From a virus, in the IMG/VR virus record IMGVR_UViG_3300034789_000526, positions 1 through 51,644 of that record: a stretch of DNA of 51,644 bases; one strand, written 5' to 3'. Both the position numbers and the translations under genes were made by a program. This document shows, piece by piece, positions 5,742-50,249 of the stretch; the stretch's first letter is position 1; each line of letters starts with the position of its first letter. A model generated the notes under the pieces. The model was not told where the DNA came from, did no database searches, and worked only from the letters and a program-made list of their open reading frames with translations.

Positions 5742-6299
5742 CTAGCCTTGTGACAGTTCGTGATGTGGATTGGATTGGTTGTGTGGTACGTCAAAAACTA
5801 AAGAGATTCTATCCACGTCTCCAATGTTTATAGCACCGTGTGGTATTTTGTTATTGAACCAGAAGAATGTGCCTGGTTCAACAACCATAGTCTCATCACC
5901 AACATAATACTGATAACGAGATTGTAATGACAAATGATATCTATCTTTCTTCAAATAATATGTTCCTTCATCAATATGCATACCCACAGAATCACCCGGT
6001 TTCAATCTAAAGAATGCAGCACGCCCTGTGCGTTTGATGTTATTCTCACGCAGAAACTTTCTCACCTCACTGTAGTGTGAGTACAGAGGAGTTTCTTGCT
6101 GTTTGTCTACATTCTTTGGATTCTCTCCAGATCCTACCTTTGCCCATACAAGTGGTAAGAAACCATAAGGATCTTTGTCACCACCAATCTTATTAGGATT
6201 GAGAGATGATACCCAATCCCAATCGTCATAGTTATCATAAACCTGATTTAAGATTGGTTTAGGATCTATACCAGTTTTTATGATAACTATATTATTCAT
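5742..6299 (-). CDS. 2-oxoglutarate/Fe(II)-dependent hydroxylase (Asp/Asn beta-hydroxylase-like)
   Basis: A 185-residue enzyme of the double-stranded beta-helix oxygenase fold. The iron ligands are visible as His108-x-Asp110 (GMHIDEG) and His154 (KIPHGAIN), and Arg164 in DRISLVFD is placed to bind 2-oxoglutarate. The order RxxxGxxxxxHxD, then a DRYHLSLQ-type strand, then a WFNN-x4-H turn matches aspartyl/asparaginyl beta-hydroxylases. The substrate could be a host or phage protein, or a small molecule; sequence alone does not say. Such oxygenases are common accessory genes in marine T4-type phages. ATG 6299 overlaps the preceding stop as ATGA, so it is expressed from the unit of the 52-aa gene. 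Confidence 0.85.
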   Translation of the reverse strand: MNNIVIIKTGIDPKPILNQVYDNYDDWDWVSSLNPNKIGGDKDPYGFLPLVWAKVGSGENPKNVDKQQETPLYSHYSEVRKFLRENNIKRTGRAAFFRLKPGDSVGMHIDEGTYYLKKDRYHLSLQSRYQYYVGDETMVVEPGTFFWFNNKIPHGAINIGDVDRISLVFDVPHNQSNPHHELSQG

Positions 6300-8952: not shown

Positions 8953-9096
8953 CTATTTATCAGTCATCAACATACTAATCCATTCATCGAATTCTTCTCC
9001 AATAGAGATCGCATCTTCAAATCGTCCCTGATCGATAAGGAACTCTAGCCTTTCTGTTCTCTCTTTGAGAATTTGTTCAATGAATTCTTCACCCAT
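8953..9096 (-). CDS. Hypothetical protein, 47 aa
   Basis: MGEEFIEQILKERTERLEFL begins a short, fully helical acidic protein (residues 1-45). Its ATG is inside the end of the zinc-ribbon gene (8-base overlap), suggesting coupled translation. The stop codon is embedded in a late-type octamer. Function unknown. Confidence 0.65.
   Translation of the reverse strand: MGEEFIEQILKERTERLEFLIDQGRFEDAISIGEEFDEWISMLMTDK
8954..8961 (-). promoter_or_regulatory. Possible late promoter GATAAATA
   Basis: A T4-type late octamer overlapping the TAG stop of the 47-aa gene, 72 bases upstream of ATG 8881. It would give the 52-aa gene a second, late start site besides its sigma-70 promoter. Confidence 0.45.
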
Positions 9097-32933: not shown

Positions 32934-35900
32934 TTAGATATTAATTTGAGATCCAACGACAGAAATAGAACGTTCAATATGAGTCTTAGGATTAAGTCTC
33001 GTAACAGCTACATTCATAAGTTGTCCTTGGAACTCCGATAAATCACCAATTCTAGGTAACATAACTTTGTTAGCAGATGTTGGACCATCAACCGGAGTGA
33101 TCTCTCCTCTGGTATTTAGTAGAGGAGTTTGGTTGTATGTTCTCTTCTGGATTCTGAAAGCAAAGTTATATTTATCAAAACCTGCCACAGCAGATTTGAT
33201 AACATTGTTACCAGGAGTATCAAAGGCATTAGATATTCTATTTGCAAGAACACCACCATTAGTAATTGTCAAACCGGATGCTTGTGAATTACCAGAGAAA
33301 ATAAGTGATTGGTTAGGAGCATTAATTCCTGCTTGTTTAACTCTACTGGAAATAACACCCCATGTAGAGGTATTAGTAACAGTAACAGCAGCATTTGCTT
33401 CTAGTGTCAGTGAACTACCACTTTCGATAGAAGCAATTGTTCCAACCCAAGTAGGATTTGTAACGTTTCCGCCACCAGCAGAACTATAGAGTTGATCACC
33501 TGGCATTAAATGTTGGGTAAATGTAGCACCGCCACTTGGTTTTGAAACAGTTTTACTACTAGTAGAAGTAGTTATATTCAAAGATGCCGTATTAGAATTT
33601 AATGCAAAACTTGCACCAGAATCCATAGAAGGCCATCCAATTGGTTTATAATGTTGTACATGACTGATGATTAATCCTTCAGTAACTCTAGATCCAGATC
33701 CACCAGCACTAATACTACCATCAGATGTATCAACAACACCATCCTGAAGACCAATTTCTAACTTAGTAGAAGATGGTGACCATTGATATTGAGCGGTATC
33801 ATATGCACCGGCATAACCAAATGCAGTGTTTGCGGTGTTTAGACCAGCATACAGACTACCACATGTTAAGTGACTGTGGTTGATTGGATAGAATGCAGTG
33901 TTATCACTACCAGAACCTTCAAAATTAGGTGTAGTTTTTCTAGTGGTCATCCAATCTTCAATACTTGCATTACTTTGGATCTGCATCATCAAGTTAGAGA
34001 AATCTGTTTTACTAGAATAGCGATCATCATAATTAACCCATCTTGGGGTTGTTGGGTGTGCAGCCAACCATACACCAGTGTTGTATTGTCTACCCCACTG
34101 AATTGCAGAAGCACCACCTAATCCAAGACCACCTACTTTCTTACCAGTAGAAGATAATGCGAAGTTACCAACCCAACCAGCACGTCCTGTGATACCATTC
34201 GTAATACTAATGTAGTTATTAATATTTTCATACCACATACGATATTCACCAAATGTCATCTTAAGACCAGTATCACTGAAGATAAACGAATCCATCACAG
34301 GACCATTAGTAACAAAGTTACCTGTTCTATGACTTATGAAGATATCTCCAATACTCAACCACTGTTGTTTATGAGTATGACCAGTATATAAGATATGAGG
34401 AGATGAGAGAGTAACTGTGGAATAACCATTAGATACTGCTGATACATTAATAATTTGAGCACTATAGTTTACAACTTCAGGTGTTGCTTCCTTTTCAGTT
34501 GAAGATACATCATCTTCATATGAATATCTAATAGTATCACCGGGCTGAATTCTTCCTGCTCTATTTGGAAGTAACAATTGGGTGTTAGTAGATCCAGGAG
34601 CAGCGTTGTTTGCACGGAAAGTTGAACCTCCCTGTGAAGGATATGTCCAACCACCATAGTTAACAAACAGGAATCCAAGATTTCTATGATTAGCATCAGA
34701 GGAATAATCTTCTGGTAGTGGATCAGCAAGATAAAGATTAAGACCACCGCTTCCTTCATCACCAATGTCTATAATTCTAGACTTAAATACTTTCGCTAGA
34801 TTTGTTTGTCCTCTAGTCTTAGTAAGGTTCCAAGACAGTTTAAATTCATTTCCTGCTTGACCAGCAGTTGTTTGACAATCCTGAAGAAGTGCTTTGTCTA
34901 GTGCAAGAACAACATTATCTTCAGATGCACCATAGAAGTACATCAAGATAGAACCACCACTAAATGTATTAGAAGTAGTACTATTAAAGGTTAGAGTTGT
35001 TTTACCATTACTAGAATTATATTGTTTGTTCGTAACCCTTCTCTGCCAGTATCCAGTTTGACCAGGATAGTAGACTGCATAGTCTTGACCACTAGCAGGT
35101 TTAGTACCGGTTACGGTAGTACTACCAGCAGTAGTAGATGTTACAGCACCAGCAACACTAACAACATAAGTACCAGTACCACCTCTACCAGTCAATGCAA
35201 CTCCAGATGGTTCATTGTAACCAGCATATCCAGAAATATAAGCATTTGCAGGAATACCAGTACCAGAAATTGATTGACCTAAGAATAAACCACCACTAGT
35301 CATAGAAGTAACATTTAAGATACCACCAGATCCTAGCGTTGCAGTATATTCACCCTCAGTCTGGATATACATAGTATCTCCACTACTAATAACAACATCA
35401 GAACTACCTGCGGTTACCTGAGCAGAATCTAGAGAGTACCATCTATAACCATAGAATCTAATACCATTAGATGTCATGTAATAACCAGCACCAGATAATC
35501 TATTTCTTCCACCAGGTGACCAGTAAATCTTCGTAGTTGCGAGGGAACTTACAGCATTATAAATCGCTGCATTATCTCTAGTATTGTTAAGAATGTGATA
35601 TCTATACCAATAATTAAAATACTTAAGAGTGGAACTAGTCAATTTACCACTAATTCTGAGGTCACCTGCACGGTTTGTAGATACGTTAGAACCAGGTTCA
35701 CCTAAAGCAGGACCAATTTTAAAACTAGCAGTGTTGAATGGTGAATAACTATAGTTAACACCCAAATCAACATAAGGCATATGTACTACCTGACCGATAG
35801 ATAGTTTTTCTCTCGCAATATTGCGATCAGAGTCAGCTTCAATATTGATCCGTGCAACTTGAGTATTGTACTTTCCGTCAGGAGCAATATATGCATTAGG

Positions 35901-38900
35901 TACACTAACATTCTCTACCACCTGTGCATTCTTACCAGCAATTCTCTTAAGACCAGTGCATGTAACATCAACTGGATCAGCAAGTTTTAGTGATGTTGGA
36001 ATGAAAGAACCAACAGTAACGTCTTGCGCCAAACTCTCAAGTGGATCTAGACCTTCCCAGTCACGAATATATGATGGGAAGTATTGTTCCATTTCTCTTT
36101 GTAGAGTAATAGTATAACCAGTATTTGATGTAGGATCTCCAGTCTTAGCAAAATCGCATAGTTCTAGATCACCAATCATTACCTTACCTTTTTCAGGCCA
36201 GTAATCTAATACATTATCATTATCAAAGATATCAAATCTAGTGTTAGATCCATAAGTTGGTTGATATTCAACATCTTCGAGCATAACAACTAGGTTTGCA
36301 CGAATATCAGCGGTGTTATTTTCATTTACATACTTATACACACCGAGATAAGGTTTGTTTGGATATGATTGATCATCCTCAGCAATCTTATAATAAGTAC
36401 TTCCAAGAAGGACATAACTTCCTGGTTTAAATAATGTTTTCGCTTTCTTGAGTGCAGTTACCAAGTTAGCAGTACTTGGGTTATTGATACTATTAAGAAC
36501 AAAACAGTTAGATGGTAGAACACCAATCATTTCACCGGGTTCAAACATTTCAATGTTATCAGTTAGGTTTCTAACTGCTGTTAATGTAATACCACTTGTA
36601 ACTACGGCAGATCCAGCACTTGATGTTTGTCTGACTGTAAATACATCTGACTCAAGATGACCGGAACCATAGGTAATAAAGTCAAGTGAAGTAATATTTC
36701 CTGAACCATTCGTTGTCAAATATGCTTGAGCTGGTGTTGATCCTACTCTACCAGAATGTAGATAAACTATAGCACTTCTAGTTAGATTTGTTGTAGGTGT
36801 TCCAGTTTTTTCAACTTTAATGTCAGCATGAATTTCATACTGAGTTCCACTTTCGATTAGGTTAAGATTGGAGTGACCCTGATAATTAACCTTTGCATAT
36901 CTAGAAGTTGTAGTCGTAGTGTACTTATATCTATTTGTAGTTAAGTAACTTGTTAAGAACAATAGATTAGAACCGTCAGCAGTTGAAAGTGGAATTGAAC
37001 CACTATATCTAATTCTTGCAAGTCTATAGATACCACCACCAGTTGCAACACCAGCATCATTGTATGCTGTAGTTGGTAATGTAACATTAGTTACAGTTGC
37101 GTAACAAGTGTCAATGTTTGTTGTTTTAACAATCTTGGATGCAAATGCACCAACGAAGATATTCTTAACAAATTCGGCATCATTAACAGGATATAAGAAT
37201 GTCAATTCTTTGGAGGAAATAGAACCACCAACAGAACTTCCATTGGAAACAGTGGATCCACTATTATTCCATCTTAGTCTAAATGCAGATGCATCACCAC
37301 TAGTATATCCTGAATTTAAATCATTATATCTAACTGGTTTTGGTGTCAAGAATCTTTCATTGATTGAAGTTCTTGTTAGAAGTCCTCCTGCAGGGATAGT
37401 AACTGCAGGGAAGATTTGAACTCCATTAGAATCATCTACTTGTGGGAATGTAACTGATGCACCTTGGTTAAATCTTCTAATTGCCTGATAACTAGAAATC
37501 GGGAATGTTCTTGCATCAGCGTCAGCTAAATCTCCATACGGAGTCTTAGATGGTTCTAAGAACAGAGTTTGATCTGTATTGAAACCAGAAACTCTTTGGA
37601 AATCTTCGTCATCTCTTGCAACACCAAGTCTCCTTGCATTTGTTCCACCCAAAGCTTGTAATGAATTCTCATCTTCCATCTGTAGTAGTTCTACAGAGTG
37701 TCCATATGTGAATGAACCACCAGCACGTGAACTACCAGTATACATCAATCCAGTCCAGTCAAGAGATAGGTTACCTCTAATTCTTAGACCACTGAGTGAT
37801 AGATTTGAACCTCTTGCACGAATTAGTCCACCACCATATCCACCACCAAATCTATTTGCGAGAGGATCCGATGGGGACTGACCACCGATTGTACAATTTG
37901 CAAGTGAGAATGGAACATTTGAACCAGGAATTGCATCAACATTAATAAGTGGTGAAGTAAAGTTACCAGTACATGGGAGAACAGCTGCCTTAAATCTTTT
38001 TCTTAAAGCTCTATGGTTGAACGGCCAGTTAAGGTAAATGTTCTTACCAATAGCATTATCTCTAGTAGTACCAGAATCTAGATATGGACAAACAGGAGCA
38101 AGTAGGTTGGATTTAGCAACTGCAATAAATTGTTCATCATTGGCGAAACTGGTAGCAGAAGTACTAACAGCAGTACCATTAACGTCAATGAAACCTCTAC
38201 CATCTTCAATAAGTGCAGTAAACGTTCCATTGTATTGCGTACTGATAGTACCACTTACGGAGAAAGAAACAATTCCATAACCAGAAGCTTCACTTCTGTT
38301 TACAGAAATATTTGCACCAACACCAGTTGCACCTCCCTGTGGAATTAGAATTACTTTAGCACGAGAGTTGTAACCAGTACCATTAGATGCTAATGCTGAA
38401 TCCAGTGCTGCTTTAATTTTAGCGGTGGTATCAGCACTAGAGAATGTAACTTGACCACTAGAGAATGCAGCACCAGTACCATCAGCACCAGCTGCACCTA
38501 GAGCAAATGGTGTAAATCCACCAAATCTACCCATGATACCAGAGTTAATACCAGCATTATCTACATATGAACTAGCATTGCCTTCTGGACTTTCAACAGC
38601 ACCTACACTATCTCCAGAACTGTATAGTTCATTTGGAGAAACTTGTAGTAGTACAAATCTGTTAGATGTAGTACCAGTAATTCTCTTAAATCCATTGAAT
38701 TTATAAGGAAGAGTTACACCACCATCTTCATTAGTGTCACTTCTTAGTTGCAGAATCATAGCAACATAAGAATAGAAATCCGAGTGAGGATATGGTCTAA
38801 TAGAACTATCAATTTCTACACTTGGATTCAAGTCGATAACGAGGTTAATTGTTCCTCTATCATAACCATTAATAATACCAAAGATTTCTGGAGTATCAAA

Positions 38901-41900
38901 CTTGGCAATTTCATTACCAAAATCATCTGATTGTGTAAATGATACTTTAGTGTTTGCAGTGATTATTGCAGTTGTAGCATCACTTAATCCAATCTCAGTT
39001 GAACTATTGACAGTAATTGTAGTACCAGTTGCAATACCTGGACCAAAAATAATATCACCATCTTTCAATGTTGTTGTATCATTTAATGATAATACCAAAA
39101 CACCAGAAGCAGCTTGAGCAGGAACTGTCTTAATAATCGCACCTTGATAACCACCAGCCCACGCAAATCCTTTTGGTAGGACTTGTCTTCTTCTTGCAAG
39201 ACACCAGTTATATGCAAGAGTTGTAAATTCGTCACCATCTCTGTTAACGAATACCATGTTTGCATTATTACTATTAACATAGGTACTCAAATCTAAATCT
39301 TCAGTGGTATTTGTAAATGATCCACTGTTACCATCATTGGTATTAGTACCACCAACTCTGGAGACTGAAACTAGAATTACAATTTTTTCGGAGTTAGCAC
39401 CAGTTTGCCAATTAGCAGGATTTTCTTCAATAGTTCTATTAACGTATCTAACGTTAATAACTTTAGCAGAAGGAGTGGAATTTGTTACATCATCAGAAGT
39501 GTTCTGCAACCAGTACATTGTTGTACCAGGAATAATATAATTTCTTGCCCAGATAAATCTCTGTGCATCAGAAGGTGATCCAGAAGTTGATGTAAATTGA
39601 GCTGCATCAAGCGTTATAGTCATATAACGAGCATTTTGTGTTAGATCAAGATCTGTGCCAGGGAAATTTGTTCCACCTGGATTTAGAATACAGTCATCAC
39701 CACTACCAGTTAGACTTTCAGCTGTAGCAAGTTTTGCAACTAAGAAGTCATCACTGTGAATGTATGGATCTAGTTTTGCATTACCAGTAGCAGTTGCACT
39801 CTGTTTTCCGGTAAACATTAGTCCACCAGCAACACCTTTTGTAGATGCAGGGAATCCAGCACTAGTTTTAATGTACCATGCTTTTCTTACAAGTTTTCTA
39901 GACTCAGATGTCTTGCTATCAGATGAATAAGTTTCATCAAGAATTTCGTTCTTGGTGATAGCATCATTTATACCCAAGAAGTGAACATTATTTAAACTAA
40001 AACCACCTTTAGAAGTTAGACCACCAGAAACACTTGAATAGAATGAGTCACTATTTCTACCATATTGATCATAGAATGATGGAGCACGATATAGATAGAT
40101 ACTATCTCCTCTCTTAACGGTAGACTCTAGGAATCCACCCATCCTACCAGCGGATGTACCAGTTTGTTCTTTACCAGCGTAAATATTACTCTTAGTAAGA
40201 CCAGTACCATTAATGGTAAGTTGACATGGGAATGAAGCACCATCTAGTTTGTAATAACCTGGTTTGAGTAGAAGTTCAACATTATCTTGTAGACCAAAAC
40301 CAGATATTTCACACCAAGTTTGAGCCTGTCGGAATGTTGCTAATGGTGAGAACTTCTTAACAGCTTGTCTGTTCTGTAAGTTAACACCAAGTGCTTTAGC
40401 ACTGAATGGGTTTGGTAGAGAATTATCAACGAAACTCTCATCAATTTCACCAGTATAAGCATCAACTTTTTCTGGAACTGTATATAGAGTTGCAGACTCT
40501 AGATCAACATCCTCAGAAATAGACTCAACAGAAGGAATGAATGGTTCTTCTTTTGCCCATCTATCATAGAAGGAAACTGTAGTTGTACAACCGGAGAAGA
40601 ATACGTTCTTACTTGGTACACCAGCTAGTTGGTTATTATAATTGGTCATATATGTATGACCAGTATCATTAGCAGAAGCATTAGGTACTTTTCTTACAAG
40701 AACGAGGTTTCCAGAAGAACTTGACTTATAGTAAATATAAGTCGAATATCTATATGTTCCATTAGCTGGATTTTCACGTAATGTTACAGCACCACGATCT
40801 GGGAAATTATTCCAATCACTAGCTACAATTGATATTGTAACGGGAGATGCAGGCGTTGGGTTACCAACACTATCAACATCTACGTTTGATGTAAGAACTG
40901 ATCTTAGATACTTAATATCTTTTTCACTAGCACTAGCACCATCATCAATTGGGTTTGACCAATGTTTGATAATATTTGAATAAGCACCTGTACCTAGAAC
41001 ATCTTCTAGATATGATTGTCTATTCTTATAGTTTTGAGTTGAACTTAGTGTAATTGTATTGGTCGTGTAGTCAATACCAGTATAATAAAGTGATACTAAA
41101 ATTTGAGGATTTAAATACGTATCTGTACTTCCAACTGTCTTAAAGTCATTAGATTCAACATACTTAAGTTGCATACCAACGTCAACAATACCAAATGATG
41201 GAATACCAGATGCTTCCTTAACTTTAACTGAAGTAGATGTAGAGGTTAGAGCAACAGATCCTGCTGCACTATTATCCATTAGAGTTCTACTCAATGGTTG
41301 GATATAAATTCTGTTATTATCTAGTGTAACGTTAGAAGCAGAGATAAGTTGTCTCTTAATTCTCCAAGCATCGAGGAATTTAGGAGAAACATAGAGTCTA
41401 TCGTTAGTATCAGTTGAGATGTAACCAGTTTTTTCTGGTCTTGCACCTTTTACAAAACCATATGCTTCCTGGTTTGCTTCTGGGAATTTCTCTCCATTAG
41501 CAATTCTAGTACTTGCAATAAACAATCTTTCATTAACAATAAGGTTTTGAATAGTTGCTCTATCAGTAACACTAAGTTTCGCAGTATTAAAGAAGTTAGA
41601 TAGTGCTTTAAGTGCAGACTGACCAGCACTGTTCTTAGCGGTTGTTGCAGTAACGTTAACAACTGCGTTAGAAATTCTGTTCTCTAGGTTAGTGATGTCA
41701 ACATAGTTAGATTCAGAAGACTTACGAACTTTAGGAACGTTTAGTGTAACTGTAGAAGTACCACCTGCTTGTACAACCTGCGAACCAATATAGAAGTCAC
41801 CGTTAGAGTTTGTACCAGAAGATGCAACGAAACCACCTGCGTTTTCATAACCCTGTGCAATAAACTGTTCGTAGGGCTTAAGAACTCTGGTCTGTAGGTT

Positions 41901-44900
41901 GGGGAAACCAGTTGAGTAGTTACCAGAACCAAGACCGACATATTCCCAAGTGTGTGAAGATGCACGTAGGATAGATGGTCTGAATAGAGGAACCGTTGGT
42001 GATGCATTAGTCATCGAAACTGTATTAGTTTCAGATGGTGCAGTGTAACTCTTATTTCTTTCTACAACAACAATTCTTCTCTCATTTGCTTCACCATTAA
42101 TACCAAATATATTTTGATTAACAGTAGAAGAAATACCTGATAACAAACCATTGTTACCACGACGATAGGAACCAGAACCGTAAACATTTACATTAGATGT
42201 TGTGTGATCACTGTAACTACTTCTGGAATCCCAAGAAACAACCGGAGCGATAACAGGTGTAGCATTAGCAGATGATGTTGGTCCAGCGTAACTCAAATCT
42301 AGTGACTGTACAAGTCTATGACATGCTTCAGCAGTCACAGAAGTCATAGATGGAACTTCTTTAAATGGTGTGGTAGTAACTCCAGAATAGAAGTAAGCTG
42401 CGTTAGGAACAGATAAATCCTTGACTCTCTTACCACCACCAATAGCTTCAACTAGAACACGGGAATCTGCCTGTGGTGGGTTCCAGATTCTTCTAATATC
42501 ATAAGTAGGACCTTCCTCGTTAACGGATGGATATAGGTAGTTAATATTGGAAGATACTCTACAGTCCTTATCGAACAAGTTAAGACCTTCGATTTTATTA
42601 ACTGTGAATGATGCAGAATTGTTTTCTAGAGGTCTTCTAGTAATTGTTTCTGAATTATTGTTAGTACCATACATGAAGGTATTAACGTCAGATCTAATAA
42701 TAGTTAGATAATAAACACCGTCTCTTACGTTAGATTCCCATGAAGTGACTTCTTCAACATCAAATACCTGGAATCTGAAATCCGTATATGGCATTCCAGT
42801 ACCATCATTATCCAACCTAGTACCCTTAATGATAAATCTCTTTTCTGGTGGTTTTGGAATAGTTTGAGATGACTTAGGAATAGTATATTCAACTCTCCAT
42901 AATAGATCAGATGGTGATGAAGCACGACCATCAATAAACTTAGAAGTTTGTAGAGTTGATGGGAAACCATCGAAGTACTGTAGAACCGTAATATCACTTG
43001 TTCCAGTAACAATCGAGATAGAACCATCTGGATTTGTTACTTCATTTGTAGTAAATACCGCTTCAGTTGTTGTTGCAAATATAAAGTTTGTTAGGAAAGA
43101 ATCAGTTGCTGCATCACTAGCATTTACTTTTATATAAACTTTATTTACAGTTGGATCCCAGAAATAACCTTGTCTTTCTGCGTTTTCACCAGTAGTTTCA
43201 CCCGTTGTTACACCATTGAGAGAAATTCTTGCTGTATAATTGGTTGTACCACCATCTTCTGTTTCAACAATAGTTTGAATTTGGGCTTCAGAAGAAGGAG
43301 CAACACCAGTAGTACTATAATAATCTCTGAAAAGATTATAGTTGTTGTTACTACCAAAGTTTAGGAATCTCTTAGTTACTGTTGAGTTAGTCGTATAGTC
43401 AAATGCATCAACAATAAGTTCTGGAATGTCTTTTTCTGAGTTTAGACCACCAATATCAAGATATAATCTAAATTGGTTTTGGTTAGATGTAAACGTAGCT
43501 ACAAAACCAGCATTATAGTTTTTGTCACCCTGACCATTTTTCTGCCAAGTTGTATTATAGTCAATTGCATAGAATTCTGCAGTAGATTCCGTAGAAGAAA
43601 TACCTCTAGGTGGAATAATAGCAGTAATCTTACCTTGTGCTGCAGGAGCAAATGATTGAGCCTGTGATCCTTTTGCACGAAGTGAAATTTGACCAAAGTT
43701 GGAGTTAGAGTTGGTGATCGACATGTCACCACCACTTTCAGACAAGAACTGGTCTGCATAACCAACTGCGAAGACCGAAACTACCTGAATGAAAGCGCCG
43801 TCTGTTGCCTTAATGTGGAAGTGTCTCCAAGATGGACGATATTGTGCATCTGGGTCAGCATAGATTGGTGGGTTAGTAACACCATTCGGATCATTGAAGC
43901 TTGTATTGTTTGGATCACCTTCTGCGTCTTTTGGTTGCCAGAATGCGTTATTATCTCTCTGGAGTGAAATACCCGTAAACTGTGCAACAACCATGGATTT
44001 AAAGCTCTTCTCAGAGACTTTACTACCATCAGTGTGCATACCACAAAGTCCGAAGACAGAACGTAGCGAGCAGTTAAAGATATAAGGAGAACAACCGTTA
44101 ACGGTATCAATAGTTGTACTTAGAGTTCTATCACCAACAATCTCAAATTCTTCTCTTCTTGCTGCTCTTGCATTACCACCATCAAGGGTTGTATCCCAAT
44201 GGTCAATCTTCTTATAGTATGTCGCAAGTTCACCATCAACAGTTCTTTGATCTGCGTATGTGAATGAGACAACTCTATGGTGTGAATACGCAGCACTAGC
44301 AGCAGTTGCGAATGTTGGAACACCACCTGAATAAGTTACACCGTTTGCAGGAGCAGTTTTTGCATCCTTAAAGGTCATCTGCCAGAAGTAGCAACCACCA
44401 GTTACTTTGAAGATTGCAGTTCTCTCATATACACCAGGAGTCTTCTCAACTAATTCAGTGTAAGTATTTGGGTTGTTAAGGATAATTGCAAAAACACCAT
44501 CTGAAGATACTGAAGAAGGTCCACTAACAGCACCACCAAGTGCTGCAAGACCAGTGTCAATACTTGAACAATCACCAGCAGACTGATATTCTACACCAAC
44601 CGTATATGTTGGTTGTGCAACTGTACTACCAGCAACTGATGTATGAGTATAACCAGAACCAAATGCATGAGCAGCTTTAATAGCAACTGTCATCGCATAG
44701 TCAATTGCCCATAAAGTAGCAGCTTTTTCGTTAGTTCCAGTAATGTGTTGCAGAGCAGTACCGTTTGTATATCTTTCACCAGCAACAAACGTATTTGCGT
44801 TACCACCTTCACGAAGGTCAGCAATCCATGCATCAACAACAATACCAATATCTCTCTTACACTTAGAATTGATCTTGAGTACAGATGGGAACTGTGTATC

Positions 44901-45719
44901 AGCAGCAACGAAAGCTTGATCTACAATATATCCACGAGCTTTCTCAATCATATTTGCAGCATCAAGAGTCGTAGAATTCGACTGATATGCTGCTCCAACC
45001 TGATCACCAGTATCTGCGCCCAGAGTCGATGATGGGTTAGGAACGAATTTTGGTCTAATAACAGTTTTTCTTAAATCATAACCAACAATGGAAGTACCGC
45101 GAGGAACGATAATACCACCATTCTTAGGGTTGAACTTATAAAGTTCCTCTTCAAATGTACCGAAAGTTAGGTTTGAATTACCAATAACACCTGGTCTGTT
45201 ATCAACAGTGTAATCACCAGGCATAACCATAATGGTATATGCTTCAAATCTGTCATTTTCGTGATCACCACCAGATCCGGGGATACTACTTCCTGTATCC
45301 GCTACATAACTTCTCCTAGCGGCTTCAAGAAGTGCTCTTTCAATCGTTTTGAATGGACTATTAACGTTACCACCATTATTACCAATCGAGTCAGTCGCAT
45401 TCAAGTCAGACTGATTAACATACAACATGATATTTGTTGCATTATCAAAGTCGGGGTTTGTACCACCAACAATACTACCGTCAGTATCAGATGCATCTCT
45501 ATATGTCTTTAGTTTACCATCTGCACCAATGGTAAATCTCTTAATTCCTGCAGTAGCAAATGAAATTTCATTTGCAGCAGATTGGTACATACCAGTGTCA
45601 GTGTCCCCATTAAAGCTGATAGCAGGTAAGTTACCTGTCATCTTAGGTTCATTCTGTGCATTAAATTTAATTTCAACACCAGGTGCAATTCCACCTGAAG
45701 TTACTCTTGTTAGAGCCAT
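32934..45719 (-). CDS. Giant virion structural protein, 4261 aa
   Basis: A single uninterrupted frame of 12.8 kb. Residues 1-75 form a fibre-type cap (ISFNGDTDTGMYQSAANEIS, RFTIGADGKL). Residues 117-140 (NGGNVNSPFKTIERALLEAA) look like the start of a right-handed beta-helix of the pectate-lyase type; a second one starts near residue 1795 (TFRQAQTWCEISGFGLQ, ELLLKPGYYKLDGASF), and a Gly-rich beta-helix-like stretch lies near 2620-2690. Serine, threonine, asparagine and glycine dominate throughout and no catalytic motif is evident. It is probably a baseplate-attached fibre or spike mediating cell contact. Very large structural genes are known in marine T4-type phages, but I cannot match this one to a T4 gene. 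Two late boxes lie upstream and GGAG precedes the ATG. Confidence 0.8.
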   Translation of the reverse strand: MALTRVTSGGIAPGVEIKFNAQNEPKMTGNLPAISFNGDTDTGMYQSAANEISFATAGIKRFTIGADGKLKTYRDASDTDGSIVGGTNPDFDNATNIMLYVNQSDLNATDSIGNNGGNVNSPFKTIERALLEAARRSYVADTGSSIPGSGGDHENDRFEAYTIMVMPGDYTVDNRPGVIGNSNLTFGTFEEELYKFNPKNGGIIVPRGTSIVGYDLRKTVIRPKFVPNPSSTLGADTGDQVGAAYQSNSTTLDAANMIEKARGYIVDQAFVAADTQFPSVLKINSKCKRDIGIVVDAWIADLREGGNANTFVAGERYTNGTALQHITGTNEKAATLWAIDYAMTVAIKAAHAFGSGYTHTSVAGSTVAQPTYTVGVEYQSAGDCSSIDTGLAALGGAVSGPSSVSSDGVFAIILNNPNTYTELVEKTPGVYERTAIFKVTGGCYFWQMTFKDAKTAPANGVTYSGGVPTFATAASAAYSHHRVVSFTYADQRTVDGELATYYKKIDHWDTTLDGGNARAARREEFEIVGDRTLSTTIDTVNGCSPYIFNCSLRSVFGLCGMHTDGSKVSEKSFKSMVVAQFTGISLQRDNNAFWQPKDAEGDPNNTSFNDPNGVTNPPIYADPDAQYRPSWRHFHIKATDGAFIQVVSVFAVGYADQFLSESGGDMSITNSNSNFGQISLRAKGSQAQSFAPAAQGKITAIIPPRGISSTESTAEFYAIDYNTTWQKNGQGDKNYNAGFVATFTSNQNQFRLYLDIGGLNSEKDIPELIVDAFDYTTNSTVTKRFLNFGSNNNYNLFRDYYSTTGVAPSSEAQIQTIVETEDGGTTNYTARISLNGVTTGETTGENAERQGYFWDPTVNKVYIKVNASDAATDSFLTNFIFATTTEAVFTTNEVTNPDGSISIVTGTSDITVLQYFDGFPSTLQTSKFIDGRASSPSDLLWRVEYTIPKSSQTIPKPPEKRFIIKGTRLDNDGTGMPYTDFRFQVFDVEEVTSWESNVRDGVYYLTIIRSDVNTFMYGTNNNSETITRRPLENNSASFTVNKIEGLNLFDKDCRVSSNINYLYPSVNEEGPTYDIRRIWNPPQADSRVLVEAIGGGKRVKDLSVPNAAYFYSGVTTTPFKEVPSMTSVTAEACHRLVQSLDLSYAGPTSSANATPVIAPVVSWDSRSSYSDHTTSNVNVYGSGSYRRGNNGLLSGISSTVNQNIFGINGEANERRIVVVERNKSYTAPSETNTVSMTNASPTVPLFRPSILRASSHTWEYVGLGSGNYSTGFPNLQTRVLKPYEQFIAQGYENAGGFVASSGTNSNGDFYIGSQVVQAGGTSTVTLNVPKVRKSSESNYVDITNLENRISNAVVNVTATTAKNSAGQSALKALSNFFNTAKLSVTDRATIQNLIVNERLFIASTRIANGEKFPEANQEAYGFVKGARPEKTGYISTDTNDRLYVSPKFLDAWRIKRQLISASNVTLDNNRIYIQPLSRTLMDNSAAGSVALTSTSTSVKVKEASGIPSFGIVDVGMQLKYVESNDFKTVGSTDTYLNPQILVSLYYTGIDYTTNTITLSSTQNYKNRQSYLEDVLGTGAYSNIIKHWSNPIDDGASASEKDIKYLRSVLTSNVDVDSVGNPTPASPVTISIVASDWNNFPDRGAVTLRENPANGTYRYSTYIYYKSSSSGNLVLVRKVPNASANDTGHTYMTNYNNQLAGVPSKNVFFSGCTTTVSFYDRWAKEEPFIPSVESISEDVDLESATLYTVPEKVDAYTGEIDESFVDNSLPNPFSAKALGVNLQNRQAVKKFSPLATFRQAQTWCEISGFGLQDNVELLLKPGYYKLDGASFPCQLTINGTGLTKSNIYAGKEQTGTSAGRMGGFLESTVKRGDSIYLYRAPSFYDQYGRNSDSFYSSVSGGLTSKGGFSLNNVHFLGINDAITKNEILDETYSSDSKTSESRKLVRKAWYIKTSAGFPASTKGVAGGLMFTGKQSATATGNAKLDPYIHSDDFLVAKLATAESLTGSGDDCILNPGGTNFPGTDLDLTQNARYMTITLDAAQFTSTSGSPSDAQRFIWARNYIIPGTTMYWLQNTSDDVTNSTPSAKVINVRYVNRTIEENPANWQTGANSEKIVILVSVSRVGGTNTNDGNSGSFTNTTEDLDLSTYVNSNNANMVFVNRDGDEFTTLAYNWCLARRRQVLPKGFAWAGGYQGAIIKTVPAQAASGVLVLSLNDTTTLKDGDIIFGPGIATGTTITVNSSTEIGLSDATTAIITANTKVSFTQSDDFGNEIAKFDTPEIFGIINGYDRGTINLVIDLNPSVEIDSSIRPYPHSDFYSYVAMILQLRSDTNEDGGVTLPYKFNGFKRITGTTSNRFVLLQVSPNELYSSGDSVGAVESPEGNASSYVDNAGINSGIMGRFGGFTPFALGAAGADGTGAAFSSGQVTFSSADTTAKIKAALDSALASNGTGYNSRAKVILIPQGGATGVGANISVNRSEASGYGIVSFSVSGTISTQYNGTFTALIEDGRGFIDVNGTAVSTSATSFANDEQFIAVAKSNLLAPVCPYLDSGTTRDNAIGKNIYLNWPFNHRALRKRFKAAVLPCTGNFTSPLINVDAIPGSNVPFSLANCTIGGQSPSDPLANRFGGGYGGGLIRARGSNLSLSGLRIRGNLSLDWTGLMYTGSSRAGGSFTYGHSVELLQMEDENSLQALGGTNARRLGVARDDEDFQRVSGFNTDQTLFLEPSKTPYGDLADADARTFPISSYQAIRRFNQGASVTFPQVDDSNGVQIFPAVTIPAGGLLTRTSINERFLTPKPVRYNDLNSGYTSGDASAFRLRWNNSGSTVSNGSSVGGSISSKELTFLYPVNDAEFVKNIFVGAFASKIVKTTNIDTCYATVTNVTLPTTAYNDAGVATGGGIYRLARIRYSGSIPLSTADGSNLLFLTSYLTTNRYKYTTTTTSRYAKVNYQGHSNLNLIESGTQYEIHADIKVEKTGTPTTNLTRSAIVYLHSGRVGSTPAQAYLTTNGSGNITSLDFITYGSGHLESDVFTVRQTSSAGSAVVTSGITLTAVRNLTDNIEMFEPGEMIGVLPSNCFVLNSINNPSTANLVTALKKAKTLFKPGSYVLLGSTYYKIAEDDQSYPNKPYLGVYKYVNENNTADIRANLVVMLEDVEYQPTYGSNTRFDIFDNDNVLDYWPEKGKVMIGDLELCDFAKTGDPTSNTGYTITLQREMEQYFPSYIRDWEGLDPLESLAQDVTVGSFIPTSLKLADPVDVTCTGLKRIAGKNAQVVENVSVPNAYIAPDGKYNTQVARINIEADSDRNIAREKLSIGQVVHMPYVDLGVNYSYSPFNTASFKIGPALGEPGSNVSTNRAGDLRISGKLTSSTLKYFNYWYRYHILNNTRDNAAIYNAVSSLATTKIYWSPGGRNRLSGAGYYMTSNGIRFYGYRWYSLDSAQVTAGSSDVVISSGDTMYIQTEGEYTATLGSGGILNVTSMTSGGLFLGQSISGTGIPANAYISGYAGYNEPSGVALTGRGGTGTYVVSVAGAVTSTTAGSTTVTGTKPASGQDYAVYYPGQTGYWQRRVTNKQYNSSNGKTTLTFNSTTSNTFSGGSILMYFYGASEDNVVLALDKALLQDCQTTAGQAGNEFKLSWNLTKTRGQTNLAKVFKSRIIDIGDEGSGGLNLYLADPLPEDYSSDANHRNLGFLFVNYGGWTYPSQGGSTFRANNAAPGSTNTQLLLPNRAGRIQPGDTIRYSYEDDVSSTEKEATPEVVNYSAQIINVSAVSNGYSTVTLSSPHILYTGHTHKQQWLSIGDIFISHRTGNFVTNGPVMDSFIFSDTGLKMTFGEYRMWYENINNYISITNGITGRAGWVGNFALSSTGKKVGGLGLGGASAIQWGRQYNTGVWLAAHPTTPRWVNYDDRYSSKTDFSNLMMQIQSNASIEDWMTTRKTTPNFEGSGSDNTAFYPINHSHLTCGSLYAGLNTANTAFGYAGAYDTAQYQWSPSSTKLEIGLQDGVVDTSDGSISAGGSGSRVTEGLIISHVQHYKPIGWPSMDSGASFALNSNTASLNITTSTSSKTVSKPSGGATFTQHLMPGDQLYSSAGGGNVTNPTWVGTIASIESGSSLTLEANAAVTVTNTSTWGVISSRVKQAGINAPNQSLIFSGNSQASGLTITNGGVLANRISNAFDTPGNNVIKSAVAGFDKYNFAFRIQKRTYNQTPLLNTRGEITPVDGPTSANKVMLPRIGDLSEFQGQLMNVAVTRLNPKTHIERSISVVGSQINI

Positions 45720-45828: not shown

Positions 45829-45913
45829 TAGGACGAGAGGGACTTGAACCCTCATGAGCGTAATGCTCGACAGATTTTAAGTCTGGTGTGTCTACCAATT
45901 CCACCACCGTCCC
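45829..45913 (-). tRNA. tRNA-Leu (anticodon UAA)
   Basis: An 85-nt class II tRNA. Acceptor stem GGGACGG pairs with TCGTCCT (two G-T pairs), D-arm TGGTGGAATTGGTAGACACA, anticodon stem-loop CAGAC-TTAAAAT-CTG with anticodon TAA, a variable arm CGAGCATTACGCTC with stem, T-arm GAGGG-TTCAAGT-CCCTC, and discriminator A as expected for leucine. The 3' CCA is not encoded. It decodes UUA/UUG, codons favoured by A+T-rich phages. It is preceded by a consensus sigma-70 promoter at 46012-46040 and followed by a terminator. Confidence 0.95.
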
Positions 45914-46245: not shown

Positions 46246-46274
46246 AGTATAATATAAAACCTATCAGGTGTCAA
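46246..46274 (-). promoter_or_regulatory. Strong sigma-70-type promoter
   Basis: TTGACA (46269-46274), 17-base spacer, TATACT (46246-46251), one base from perfect consensus. The TGA in the -35 box is the stop codon of the gp5-like gene. Confidence 0.85.
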
Positions 46275-48703
46275 GTGGTGATGGTGAGTGGTGCGTTAAA
46301 GAAGTTGATAGCAGCTGAATTAGTAAACTTGAGACCTTGAGCAGCATCTGAAAATATTCCAGTGGTGTTAGTAAATTTAGCACCAACAATTGAATCAACA
46401 TATGCAGAAGCTTTGGTGTATGATGACACACCCAAAGTACTTTTTTGATCTGCTGATAATTTGTTCTCACTCCAAATTCCAGTACCAATCTCTGTGAATG
46501 TACCACCATACCAATCTTGTTCAGTTCCAAGTTGGGTTTTATTCTGACTTCCAATACCAATCTCAAATGATGTTCCAATTCTATTCAAGATATTGTTACC
46601 AACAATTTGAGTAAAGTTATTGAGACCTACATGTTTGTTATAGAAAGTAGTAATTATATTATAAGAACCAATACAAATATTATTTGCCTCATTGACCCAC
46701 TGAGTAGAAACTGGAGCAAATAATTCATACTGACCAGATGCAGATAGTCCAAGTTTAGAAGCAGTTAGTGCTAATCCATTTGTAGCTTCTATTCTGGAGT
46801 CATTTTTAAATATCGATTTATGTTCTCCATAGTATGTTGCTTTACTTTCTTTATTAACAGACAAATTATAATGACCTAGAACTTCTAAGTGATAGTCCTT
46901 ACCAACTTTTAAATGGTAGTTACCATCAACCATCATGTTTACATTTCCATGCACAATGATGTCATTATCTTTAACTACAACTTCTGTTTTTCTCTGTGCA
47001 TTAGTAATTCTAACATCACCGTTGTCTGAAATATGAATACCAGATTTACTAGGACCATGTTCAATAACAAGTCTAGTATTATATGGAGTGTCATCCATCA
47101 ACACCATCGTGCCAGTTTCAGAAAACTGTCCCAGGATTCTTGTGTACTGTGGATTTAATCTACCTTTGATTCCAGTAATTGATGCACCAACACCCTTTCC
47201 ACCACCAATACCACAATCTAAAGCAAAACCAATTGCACAAGAATCAAACGATATTGCATATGGATCTGCAGTATCTTTGTAACAACCAATCTTCAAGAGT
47301 TGGAAGATAAATTCTAGAACACTAGTTACATTAAGTTGTGCTAAACTAGATAGATTTTCTATATCAATACCACCAATACCAGCTGCAATATCATTAACTG
47401 TACTGATTACTTGCTCAACTAGATCTGTGATATTGAAGATGGTTTCAAAGATTGCATCAAATACGCACTGAACAGAGTCAATGATGTCCATTGCAGTATT
47501 GAGTAGTGTGTTGATAGCATCTTCAATGATGCCAAACAAACTATCAATAAGTGAAGTGTCAAATGTACATGCAATCTGTCTAATGATAAACATGATTGCT
47601 TCTGTGATAGTCTTGGTTACACCAGGACCAGGTGATGGAACTGAATATCCAAGAGTGTTCATGATTTGAGTTGCTTGACCCATCAACCAAGATTTAATTT
47701 GATTGACAAGCCAATACAATGAGTTCCTAATCATCTCAAGATTGTCATCTACAATTGATTGGAGGTCAATTATAGTATCTGTAAAAGTTCCTAGGAGTTC
47801 ACCTTTCTTTTTATTTCCATCTTCATCCTTATCAACTCCTAAGTATTCACTTTTTGTTATCAACTTAACTTTAGTTCCAGGTTCATGAGCTATTGCTTTT
47901 GTTCCATCTCCACCCCTAACAACTGATACAAATTTTCCTTCATCCTTATTAGTATAAGATACTTTCTCACTACCTACTTGCAACCATCCATTCCATGGAA
48001 AGTCTTGTGTATCTTTTACAAATAAAGTTTGATCTTCTGTATCAGTATCAACGGTAATTTCAGTTTCTGCTTTGTCGATCTTTCTTGCTTGTGCTATTGC
48101 TGTTGCAACAGCTGTTACAGCATAAGAAAGATTACTATCTAGTGTTTTAGCTCCTGCATTTTTTCCATCAGCGAGAGGAACTTTTGAAACTTTACCAGAT
48201 GGATTAGCAGCAGAGTATTCTGCTACTGCAGCAGCTTCTGAAGTGGATGATCTTTCTTGCGGTGGAGTTGCTGCTTCGTTAACTCCACTCTCAGATGTGT
48301 TTTGTTTTTTAATAACATTGTCAACACCCCTAAAGTAATCAAACGCTTCCTGACTCTTAGGATCGATTACTGGTTTGATTTTACTTAGGAGTGTACCTAA
48401 GACAATAGGTTGTTGACAGTCTGGATAGTCAAGAAAAAATCCTATAACAAAACTTCCAGCTTTTAATTGAGCTCCAGCAGATCCAGCGCCATGAACACCC
48501 GGAGATGTCGTGGGACCGGCTACAATAGCCCACGGTAAGTTAGATGGTTTCTCTCCTGGTTTATGGTATCCAAGGATGTTTACTTTAACTCTACCGAGTT
48601 TTGCATCCTTGTCATCAGCATTCTTTACTGTACCCAACCACCACTTGAAATCATCATTACCTATGAAACTGGTAGAAGGTTGTGTAGGATTATATGTTGA
48701 CAT
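46271..48703 (-). CDS. Baseplate central spike, gp5-like, without lysozyme domain
   Basis: An 810-residue protein. Residues about 15-115 form the OB-fold domain of gp5/VgrG spikes (WWLGTVKNADDKDAKLGRVK, PWAIVAGPTTSPGVHGAG, GSFVIGFFLDYPDCQQPIVL). Residues about 235-285 form a small beta domain. Residues about 310-490 are unusually hydrophobic and helical (IRNSLYWLVNQIKSWLMGQA...), where T4 gp5 has its lysozyme; no lysozyme active-site pattern is seen. From about residue 549 the needle begins (GPSKSGIHISDNGDVRITNA, then repeats like DIIVHGNVNMMVDGNYHLKV), typical of the triple-stranded beta-helix. It forms the membrane-piercing spike under the gp27-like hub encoded two genes upstream. The start overlaps the CP12-like gene's stop by one base. 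Confidence 0.85.
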   Translation of the reverse strand: MSTYNPTQPSTSFIGNDDFKWWLGTVKNADDKDAKLGRVKVNILGYHKPGEKPSNLPWAIVAGPTTSPGVHGAGSAGAQLKAGSFVIGFFLDYPDCQQPIVLGTLLSKIKPVIDPKSQEAFDYFRGVDNVIKKQNTSESGVNEAATPPQERSSTSEAAAVAEYSAANPSGKVSKVPLADGKNAGAKTLDSNLSYAVTAVATAIAQARKIDKAETEITVDTDTEDQTLFVKDTQDFPWNGWLQVGSEKVSYTNKDEGKFVSVVRGGDGTKAIAHEPGTKVKLITKSEYLGVDKDEDGNKKKGELLGTFTDTIIDLQSIVDDNLEMIRNSLYWLVNQIKSWLMGQATQIMNTLGYSVPSPGPGVTKTITEAIMFIIRQIACTFDTSLIDSLFGIIEDAINTLLNTAMDIIDSVQCVFDAIFETIFNITDLVEQVISTVNDIAAGIGGIDIENLSSLAQLNVTSVLEFIFQLLKIGCYKDTADPYAISFDSCAIGFALDCGIGGGKGVGASITGIKGRLNPQYTRILGQFSETGTMVLMDDTPYNTRLVIEHGPSKSGIHISDNGDVRITNAQRKTEVVVKDNDIIVHGNVNMMVDGNYHLKVGKDYHLEVLGHYNLSVNKESKATYYGEHKSIFKNDSRIEATNGLALTASKLGLSASGQYELFAPVSTQWVNEANNICIGSYNIITTFYNKHVGLNNFTQIVGNNILNRIGTSFEIGIGSQNKTQLGTEQDWYGGTFTEIGTGIWSENKLSADQKSTLGVSSYTKASAYVDSIVGAKFTNTTGIFSDAAQGLKFTNSAAINFFNAPLTITT

Positions 48704-48915
48704 CAGTCCTCATAGATACGACATTCGTCTGCTTCAGGCCATTCTTCACAATAAAGTTCTAGATCTGTTGGATCATGATGATCTTCTGGATGTGCTTCTT
48801 GATATTTTTCTAATTGATTTAGTTGACCTTCGATGTGACGACGCATCTGAGGTGATGTTGTAGGGTTGTCCAGGATCTCTTTATCCTTTTCAATATGCTT
48901 TTCGATGTTTTCCAT
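48703..48915 (-). CDS. Small protein with CP12-like C terminus, 70 aa
   Basis: The C terminus LELYCEEWPEADECRIYED closely follows the end of CP12, the small redox protein that binds GAPDH and phosphoribulokinase in cyanobacteria: two cysteines (C56 and C65) eight residues apart, Pro-x-x-x-E-C and R-x-Y-E/D-D. The N-terminal half (MENIEKHIEKDKEILDNPTT, MRRHIEGQLNQLEKYQE) is helical but lacks the CP12 N-terminal cysteine pair. The gene sits between the two hub genes in a late operon, start 2 bases after the gp27-like stop. It may be a CP12-derived regulator of host carbon metabolism or a structural or assembly protein with a CP12-like tail. Confidence 0.72.
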   Translation of the reverse strand: MENIEKHIEKDKEILDNPTTSPQMRRHIEGQLNQLEKYQEAHPEDHHDPTDLELYCEEWPEADECRIYED

Positions 48916-48917
48916 TT

Positions 48918-50249
48918 TTAGTTAGTACCGTCTAAGTTTGTTCGATTCTCTGATCGTTTTGTGTCAGGCATAGGACTTCCGCCATAGGAATCCCTAGATA
49001 ATGTGATGTTAGTACGAAGTTCACTTCTATTTAGAATAGTATGTTTAATAGAAGTGACTAGATACCTACCACTAGCTCTCTTGTCTGGTTTGACACTAGT
49101 TGAGGATGATTCAGCAGGAGATGGAATATCTATACTAACTACATTACCAGCTCTATTTTCTAAATCACCAGGAACAGCTATGTCAATAGTATTATACTGC
49201 ATGAAATAGTATCTGTAAAATGCCTTCTCGAAGTTTTTGTTCATATCATCAATATTGTCTTTCTCGGCATCACTCTGGTTGTTATCCCAATCTCCAAATG
49301 TACTGATAGTAGATGGTCTATAGATAAATCTACTGCCTCTATCTAGCATTTGAAGTTGACCATTGCTTAAATAAGGTTTTGCTTTTTCTAAATGAGAACT
49401 CTTATCCCAAAACTCATCCGCATTAGTTTTAAATACACGGTAGGTTGCTCTGTTCACATCTAGATAAATTGCTTGGTGACAGAAAGCACCTGCTCTTAAG
49501 TCATCATACACATCAAATACTTTAGGAAAATTAAAGTTCATTATTCTATATCTATCAGCTGCTGATGTTGATGTTGTAGTAGCATTCGCTTGGGAATACT
49601 TATAACTGATATCTGGTGCAGGATATTGTGTTTGATCTATTAGTTTGTCGATAGATTTGAATCTATAACCTTCAAATGTTTCATAGAAATAGAATCCAAT
49701 TGAATCTTTTTTATAGTCTGGAACAGACCTAGTTGATAACCAATTAAATAAATCAAAGACTCTCCAATTAGGAACATACATGTCAAATGGAAATACTGAA
49801 GTGTCTTTTACAAAAGGTTTTGTAGAAAAACTATTTCTTCTCAATACATCTTCGATAACTGTCTCAGAATTCTTTCCATCTATTCTCTCACATATTCTAA
49901 AGTTTTCATTCCTTAGTCCCTCAATAGAAACAGCGTGCATAATATATGTCTGGTCTTTTTCAATAATTGTGCGTGCATCTATTTTATAAATGTAATAATT
50001 TAAATCATATAATTTACTTCTACTCGAAATTTTTATATTAATTCTTTCCTGTCCAACAATTGGCATACTACTAATCAAATTCTGACCAATATCTTGAATC
50101 AAAATTTCAGCCTGTAGTGCTGAGGACATAACACTCTCATATAAATTAATCTCCAACACGAGATTCTTTATATCAGTTGGATTAGTATTGTATACACTAT
50201 ACAGAGTTACTTCTTTTAAGGAGAAGTCTCCAGAAAATTGATTCGCCAT
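48918..50249 (-). CDS. Baseplate hub subunit, gp27-like
   Basis: A 443-residue protein with the features of the hub ring that joins the tail tube to the spike: an N-terminal part MANQFSGDFSLKEVTLYSVY with LVLEINLYESVMSSALQAEI and INIKISSRS (tube-like beta fold), a middle domain with the VPNWRVFDLFNWLSTRSVPD helix, and a C-terminal part with 'ASGRYLVTSIKHTILNRSEL' and TNITLSRDSYG, the usual closing pattern of gp27/gpD-type hubs. T4 gp27 is somewhat shorter. It lies directly upstream of the spike gene, as expected for partners. Its ATG overlaps the stop of the lysozyme-domain gene by one base. Confidence 0.78.
   Translation of the reverse strand: MANQFSGDFSLKEVTLYSVYNTNPTDIKNLVLEINLYESVMSSALQAEILIQDIGQNLISSMPIVGQERINIKISSRSKLYDLNYYIYKIDARTIIEKDQTYIMHAVSIEGLRNENFRICERIDGKNSETVIEDVLRRNSFSTKPFVKDTSVFPFDMYVPNWRVFDLFNWLSTRSVPDYKKDSIGFYFYETFEGYRFKSIDKLIDQTQYPAPDISYKYSQANATTTSTSAADRYRIMNFNFPKVFDVYDDLRAGAFCHQAIYLDVNRATYRVFKTNADEFWDKSSHLEKAKPYLSNGQLQMLDRGSRFIYRPSTISTFGDWDNNQSDAEKDNIDDMNKNFEKAFYRYYFMQYNTIDIAVPGDLENRAGNVVSIDIPSPAESSSTSVKPDKRASGRYLVTSIKHTILNRSELRTNITLSRDSYGGSPMPDTKRSENRTNLDGTN

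Follow-up and report, generated by a model that had tools for sequence, protein, structure and literature searches.

The 70-codon open reading frame lodged between two baseplate hub genes in the window, the 51,644-nt stretch of viral DNA analyzed here, is a standard, already known cyanophage cp12 gene in its commonest place. It is very likely an ordinary cyanophage auxiliary metabolic gene, with a product that would dock host GAPDH and lower Calvin-cycle flux, a function that we infer from the CP12 family. The locus comprises the following features:

46271–48703, minus strand: gp5-like baseplate hub and tail lysozyme gene (Pfam Gp5_OB, E = 4.3e-6; PHROG 694, baseplate hub/tail lysozyme, E = 2.1e-38)
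48703–48915, minus strand: cp12, 70 codons encoding 70 aa (Pfam PF02672, E = 3.5e-12; PHROG 627, E = 4.3e-32; 362 phage records)
48703–48765, minus strand: putative GAPDH-docking hairpin, residues 51–70 (C-x3-P-x4-C), plus the stop codon; matches the CP12 of 3zdf and 6gfo; helix 51–58 and a turn in the model
48793–48906, minus strand: N-terminal half, residues 4–41, a predicted helical hairpin (helices 4–16 and 22–41) lacking the N-terminal cysteines and AWD_VEEL, with conserved RRHIEgeL..LE.Y
48918–50249, minus strand: gp27-like baseplate hub/tail protein gene (PHROG 350, tail protein, E = 2.3e-91), ending 2 nt before cp12

The gene is tightly packed between its neighbors, starting 2 nt past the stop codon of the gp27-like gene and ending in a TGATG in which its own stop codon overlaps the ATG of the gp5-like gene. 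The encoded protein, MENIEKHIEKDKEILDNPTTSPQMRRHIEGQLNQLEKYQEAHPEDHHDPTDLELYCEEWPEADECRIYED (70 aa), contains only two cysteines, C56 and C65, spaced C56-x3-P-x4-C65, and thus carries the CxxxPxxxxC motif near the C terminus (C56-EEW-P-EADE-C65). C56, P60, and C65 are invariant in an alignment of 40 sequences, and exactly two cysteines are present in all 56 distinct sequences. The N-terminal cysteine pair of the canonical (N/C type) CP12 is missing, and the AWD_VEEL core of the canonical protein is absent as well, with RRHIEGQLNQLEKY in its place. The N-terminal half is also highly conserved, with the invariant positions H7, D11, R25, R26, H27, L32, and L35. The coordinates, the C-terminal two-cysteine pattern, the lack of the N-terminal pair, and the gp27-like and gp5-like neighbors were all given correctly in an initial annotation made from the sequence alone.

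The CP12 likeness proposed in that annotation is borne out by profile searches, with one correction: it had been confined to the last 20 residues, whereas the protein matches over its whole length. The Pfam CP12 (PF02672) match spans residues 2–69 with a score of 47.4 bits, compared with the curated cut-off of 22.7 bits, and was also obtained for all 37 diverse relatives tested. A profile built from the relatives matched the GAPDH-bound cyanobacterial CP12 in 6gfo across the entire length (E = 1.5e-7). It also detected the CP12 peptide in 3zdf, which is 23 aa long (E = 1.7e-6), and hhalign against the 6gfo CP12 sequence yielded 97.7%. Given the Pfam, PDB-profile, and hhalign matches, the similarity extends well beyond the two cysteines, and, as judged by these comparisons, the product is a true CP12 homolog in which the cysteine pattern did not arise by chance. 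The AlphaFold2 model of the protein alone (mean pLDDT 92.9) consists of helices 4–16, 22–41, and 51–58 followed by a turn and a tail, so that a C-terminal helix-turn hairpin is predicted. The top two PDB fold matches of the model are CP12 chains of GAPDH-CP12 complexes; with E values of 0.08 and 0.31, these weak matches do not reach significance by themselves and are consistent with the CP12 identity rather than proof of it.

A tblastn search identified 362 matching phage records, several of which are annotated as CP12 or carbon metabolic regulator. All but one of these records (361/362) are named Synechococcus, Prochlorococcus, or cyanophage, the remaining one being named 'Marine'. The initial annotation was right to treat this gene as a host clue, the hosts indicated being marine picocyanobacteria. 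A search for a host CP12 in genome contigs returned one match, a short coiled-coil in a Flavobacterium bin, which was judged to be false.

The position of cp12 was compared across 68 IMG/VR loci with sufficient flanking sequence that were selected by CP12 similarity. The gp27-like gene lies directly upstream and the gp5-like gene downstream of cp12 in 58 of the 68, and in 39 the gp5-like gene is the immediate next gene. Among named phages, the gp27-like/cp12/gp5-like order recurs in S-T4, again without an intervening gene, whereas syn9 and S-ShM2 carry cpeT in the same gap, and S-SZBM1, which otherwise shares the order of the window, carries both a 2OG-Fe(II) oxygenase and cpeT there. In S-TIM5, cp12 is found near talC, ptoX, gnd, and zwf, away from the hub genes, and the gp27 and gp5 genes of P-HM2 overlap, with nothing between them; cp12 was not found in the first 40 kb of S-RSM4. 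A previous survey located talC and cp12 in the vicinity of either psbA or gp5, frequently next to tRNAs, with 'near gp5 with tRNAs' being a gene hot spot (Sullivan et al. 2010, PMC3037559). The initial description of cp12 as not residing with metabolic genes holds for its location in the window but not for relatives, where the same gap accommodates cpeT and the 2OG-Fe(II) oxygenase. Taken together, the gene orders across phages show that the hub junction is the favored parking place for this metabolic gene, and the position is no indication that the protein is a baseplate component. Just past the gp5-like gene, the window encodes a tRNA-Leu (anticodon TAA; 45829–45913, minus strand), which fits the hot spot near gp5 described for cyanomyoviruses. 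An ORF of 4261 aa (32934–45719, minus strand) probably encodes a very large tail-fiber or virion structural protein.

The cp12 gene is under purifying selection: compared with the nearest nonidentical relative among the loci (L008), dN is 0.030 and dS is 0.415, with dN/dS of about 0.07. In the same comparison, DNA identity is 92% for cp12, 79% for the gp27-like gene, and 74% for the gp5-like gene, and protein identity is 93% for CP12 (positions 6001–6210 of L008), 80% for the gp27-like protein, and 76% for the gp5-like protein. The contrast widens across the relatives, with median identities in the same loci of 69% for CP12, 25% for the gp27-like protein, and 34% for the gp5-like protein; selecting the loci by CP12 similarity somewhat inflates the CP12 value, although the gap is still large. 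Hence, CP12 does not covary with the hub proteins. Identity of about 70% for CP12 against 25–34% for the baseplate proteins, a modest new quantitative point, is what one would expect if a conserved host target constrains the regulator, or if phage lineages exchange cp12, rather than if CP12 coevolved with the virion.

This contrast bears directly on two alternatives to a metabolic role that were raised in the initial annotation. Under one of these, CP12 would be packaged into the virion along with the hub proteins, and its injection would shut off GAPDH as infection begins. The tight placement in the hub operon, with the 2-nt gap and the TGATG overlap, and the gene order maintained in 58 of the 68 loci are in line with such an effector. 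However, the conservation of CP12 greatly exceeds that of the flanking baseplate proteins, and in S-TIM5 cp12 sits beside talC, ptoX, and gnd, away from the hub genes. Furthermore, the list of 30 proteins identified by mass spectrometry in S-SZBM1 virions includes the gp27-like protein (_65) and gp5 (_61) (PMC9146016). CP12 (_64) is missing from this list, on which another small protein of 87 aa was detected, although small proteins can be missed by this approach (PMC9146016). Delivery with the virion is accordingly not supported, and we regard it as very improbable.

The other alternative, that the protein is a baseplate hub assembly or structural component that merely borrowed a CP12 tail, appears more improbable still. 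The location between gp27 and gp5 is compatible with it, as is the confident prediction of a helical hairpin in the N-terminal half, compared with the flexible N terminus of free CP12. These points are outweighed by the coverage of the whole protein by the CP12 match, the disparity in conservation between CP12 and the two hub proteins, the overlapping gp27 and gp5 of P-HM2, the separate location in S-TIM5, and the lack of CP12 among the proteins found in S-SZBM1 virions. The conservation gap, the low dN/dS, and, as an indirect point, the S-SZBM1 virion list all favor a metabolic over a virion role.

The most likely function is that of an inhibitor of the CP12-C type, with the cysteine hairpin docking on host GAPDH. 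By analogy with the family, CP12 would be produced inside the infected cell, and its oxidized C-terminal hairpin (C56–C65, ending in ECRIYED) would dock into host GAPDH (Gap2), lowering the NADPH-using activity of Gap2. As envisaged in the CP12 literature, Calvin-cycle flux would then decrease and carbon would be directed into the pentose phosphate pathway, which would yield NADPH and pentoses for phage nucleotides. Phage CP12 is termed a Calvin-cycle inhibitor in the literature; none of the publications examined was found to assay the action of a phage CP12 on GAPDH biochemically. The metabolic reading has to accommodate the absence of the N-terminal cysteine pair and of AWD_VEEL, as well as the position of the gene in a structural, late-type operon. 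Both missing sequence elements are needed by canonical CP12 for the GAPDH/CP12/PRK complex. The 'trimmed metabolic regulator' envisaged in the initial annotation is supported, given that reviews liken the cyanophage proteins to the C-terminal part of CP12 and describe cyanophage CP12s as having the C-terminal cysteines only (PMC3906501, PMC9406205).

A tentative refinement of the CP12-C-type reading, which we consider possible though rather doubtful, is a bifunctional inhibitor that would bridge GAPDH and PRK through the helical N-terminal half, with charge contacts replacing the N-terminal disulfide. The high conservation and predicted helicity of this half, together with the full-length alignment to CP12 from cyanobacterial GAPDH-CP12 structures, point in this direction, whereas the missing N-terminal cysteines and AWD_VEEL core speak against it.

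The timing of cp12 expression at the hub locus might differ from that reported elsewhere. When P-HM2 infects cells in the light, cp12 ranks with talC among the genes with the highest expression and belongs to the middle class (PMC5082946), but this timing is not transferable to the hub locus because the gp27–gp5 junction of P-HM2 contains no gene. In the window, all 16 ATAAATA motifs, corresponding to the T4-type late-promoter core, are on the minus strand, that is, the gene strand, between positions 8954 and 45783, and many are located ~15–60 nt upstream of the starts of long or structural ORFs (for example, 12540, 15839, 19161, 21736, 24198, 28498, and 45755); the total count of the motif is no higher than expected by chance. 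No ATAAATA was found between 45783 and 51644, so that cp12 is probably read through from a hub-operon promoter outside the window or transcribed from an internal promoter. One weak candidate for the latter was identified:

49191–49219, minus strand: candidate sigma-70-like site TTTACA-N17-TATAAT, within the gp27-like gene, with cp12 beginning ~276 nt downstream

Such sites are no more common in the window than in shuffled sequence, and among the cp12 loci this one is retained at the same position only in three near relatives (L006–L008). Given the fixed place of cp12 within the hub operon in many cyanomyoviruses, late expression is conceivable there, so that these phages would hold GAPDH off until lysis or match the dose of CP12 to virion output, unlike phages such as P-HM2, in which cp12 is a middle gene located elsewhere; we consider this scenario unlikely, with an own internal promoter in the gp27 gene as the alternative.

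Comparison with known systems places the window protein among the phage CP12s. With the canonical CP12-N/C bound to GAPDH (PDB 6gfo, 6ghr, 3b1j, and 3zdf), it shares the C-terminal hairpin and the ECRIYED/ECRIYDD end but not the N-terminal cysteine pair or the AWD_VEEL core. The cyanobacterial CP12-C class of Stanley et al. (2013), compared here through its description in the literature as cited in PMC3906501, likewise has the C-terminal pair only. The classical N/C CP12 is missing in marine picocyanobacteria, an exception among cyanobacteria (PMC3906501, PMC9406205), and CP12 is encoded by 15 of the 16 cyanomyoviruses surveyed by Sullivan et al. (2010, PMC3037559). The closest counterparts are the cyanophage CP12s (T4-GC 337/63; PHROG 627), exemplified by syn9 gp17, S-ShM2 CP12, S-T4 AXQ70438, and S-TIM5 AEZ65639, with 73–77% identity to the S-TIM5, S-T4, and syn9 proteins and 65% to that of S-ShM2, and a common length class of 70–75 aa, two C-terminal cysteines, and the RRHIEgeL core. 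Unlike in syn9 and S-ShM2, the gap between the gp27-like and gp5-like genes of the window lacks cpeT. The gp27-like neighbor is <30% identical to its best matches in isolate phages, so that the phage lineage appears to be uncultivated. The sequence itself, from this apparently uncultivated lineage, is the only new element, the gene and its place being already known, and the window adds one more case of a known, ecologically important trick whereby phages of marine cyanobacteria turn off carbon fixation.
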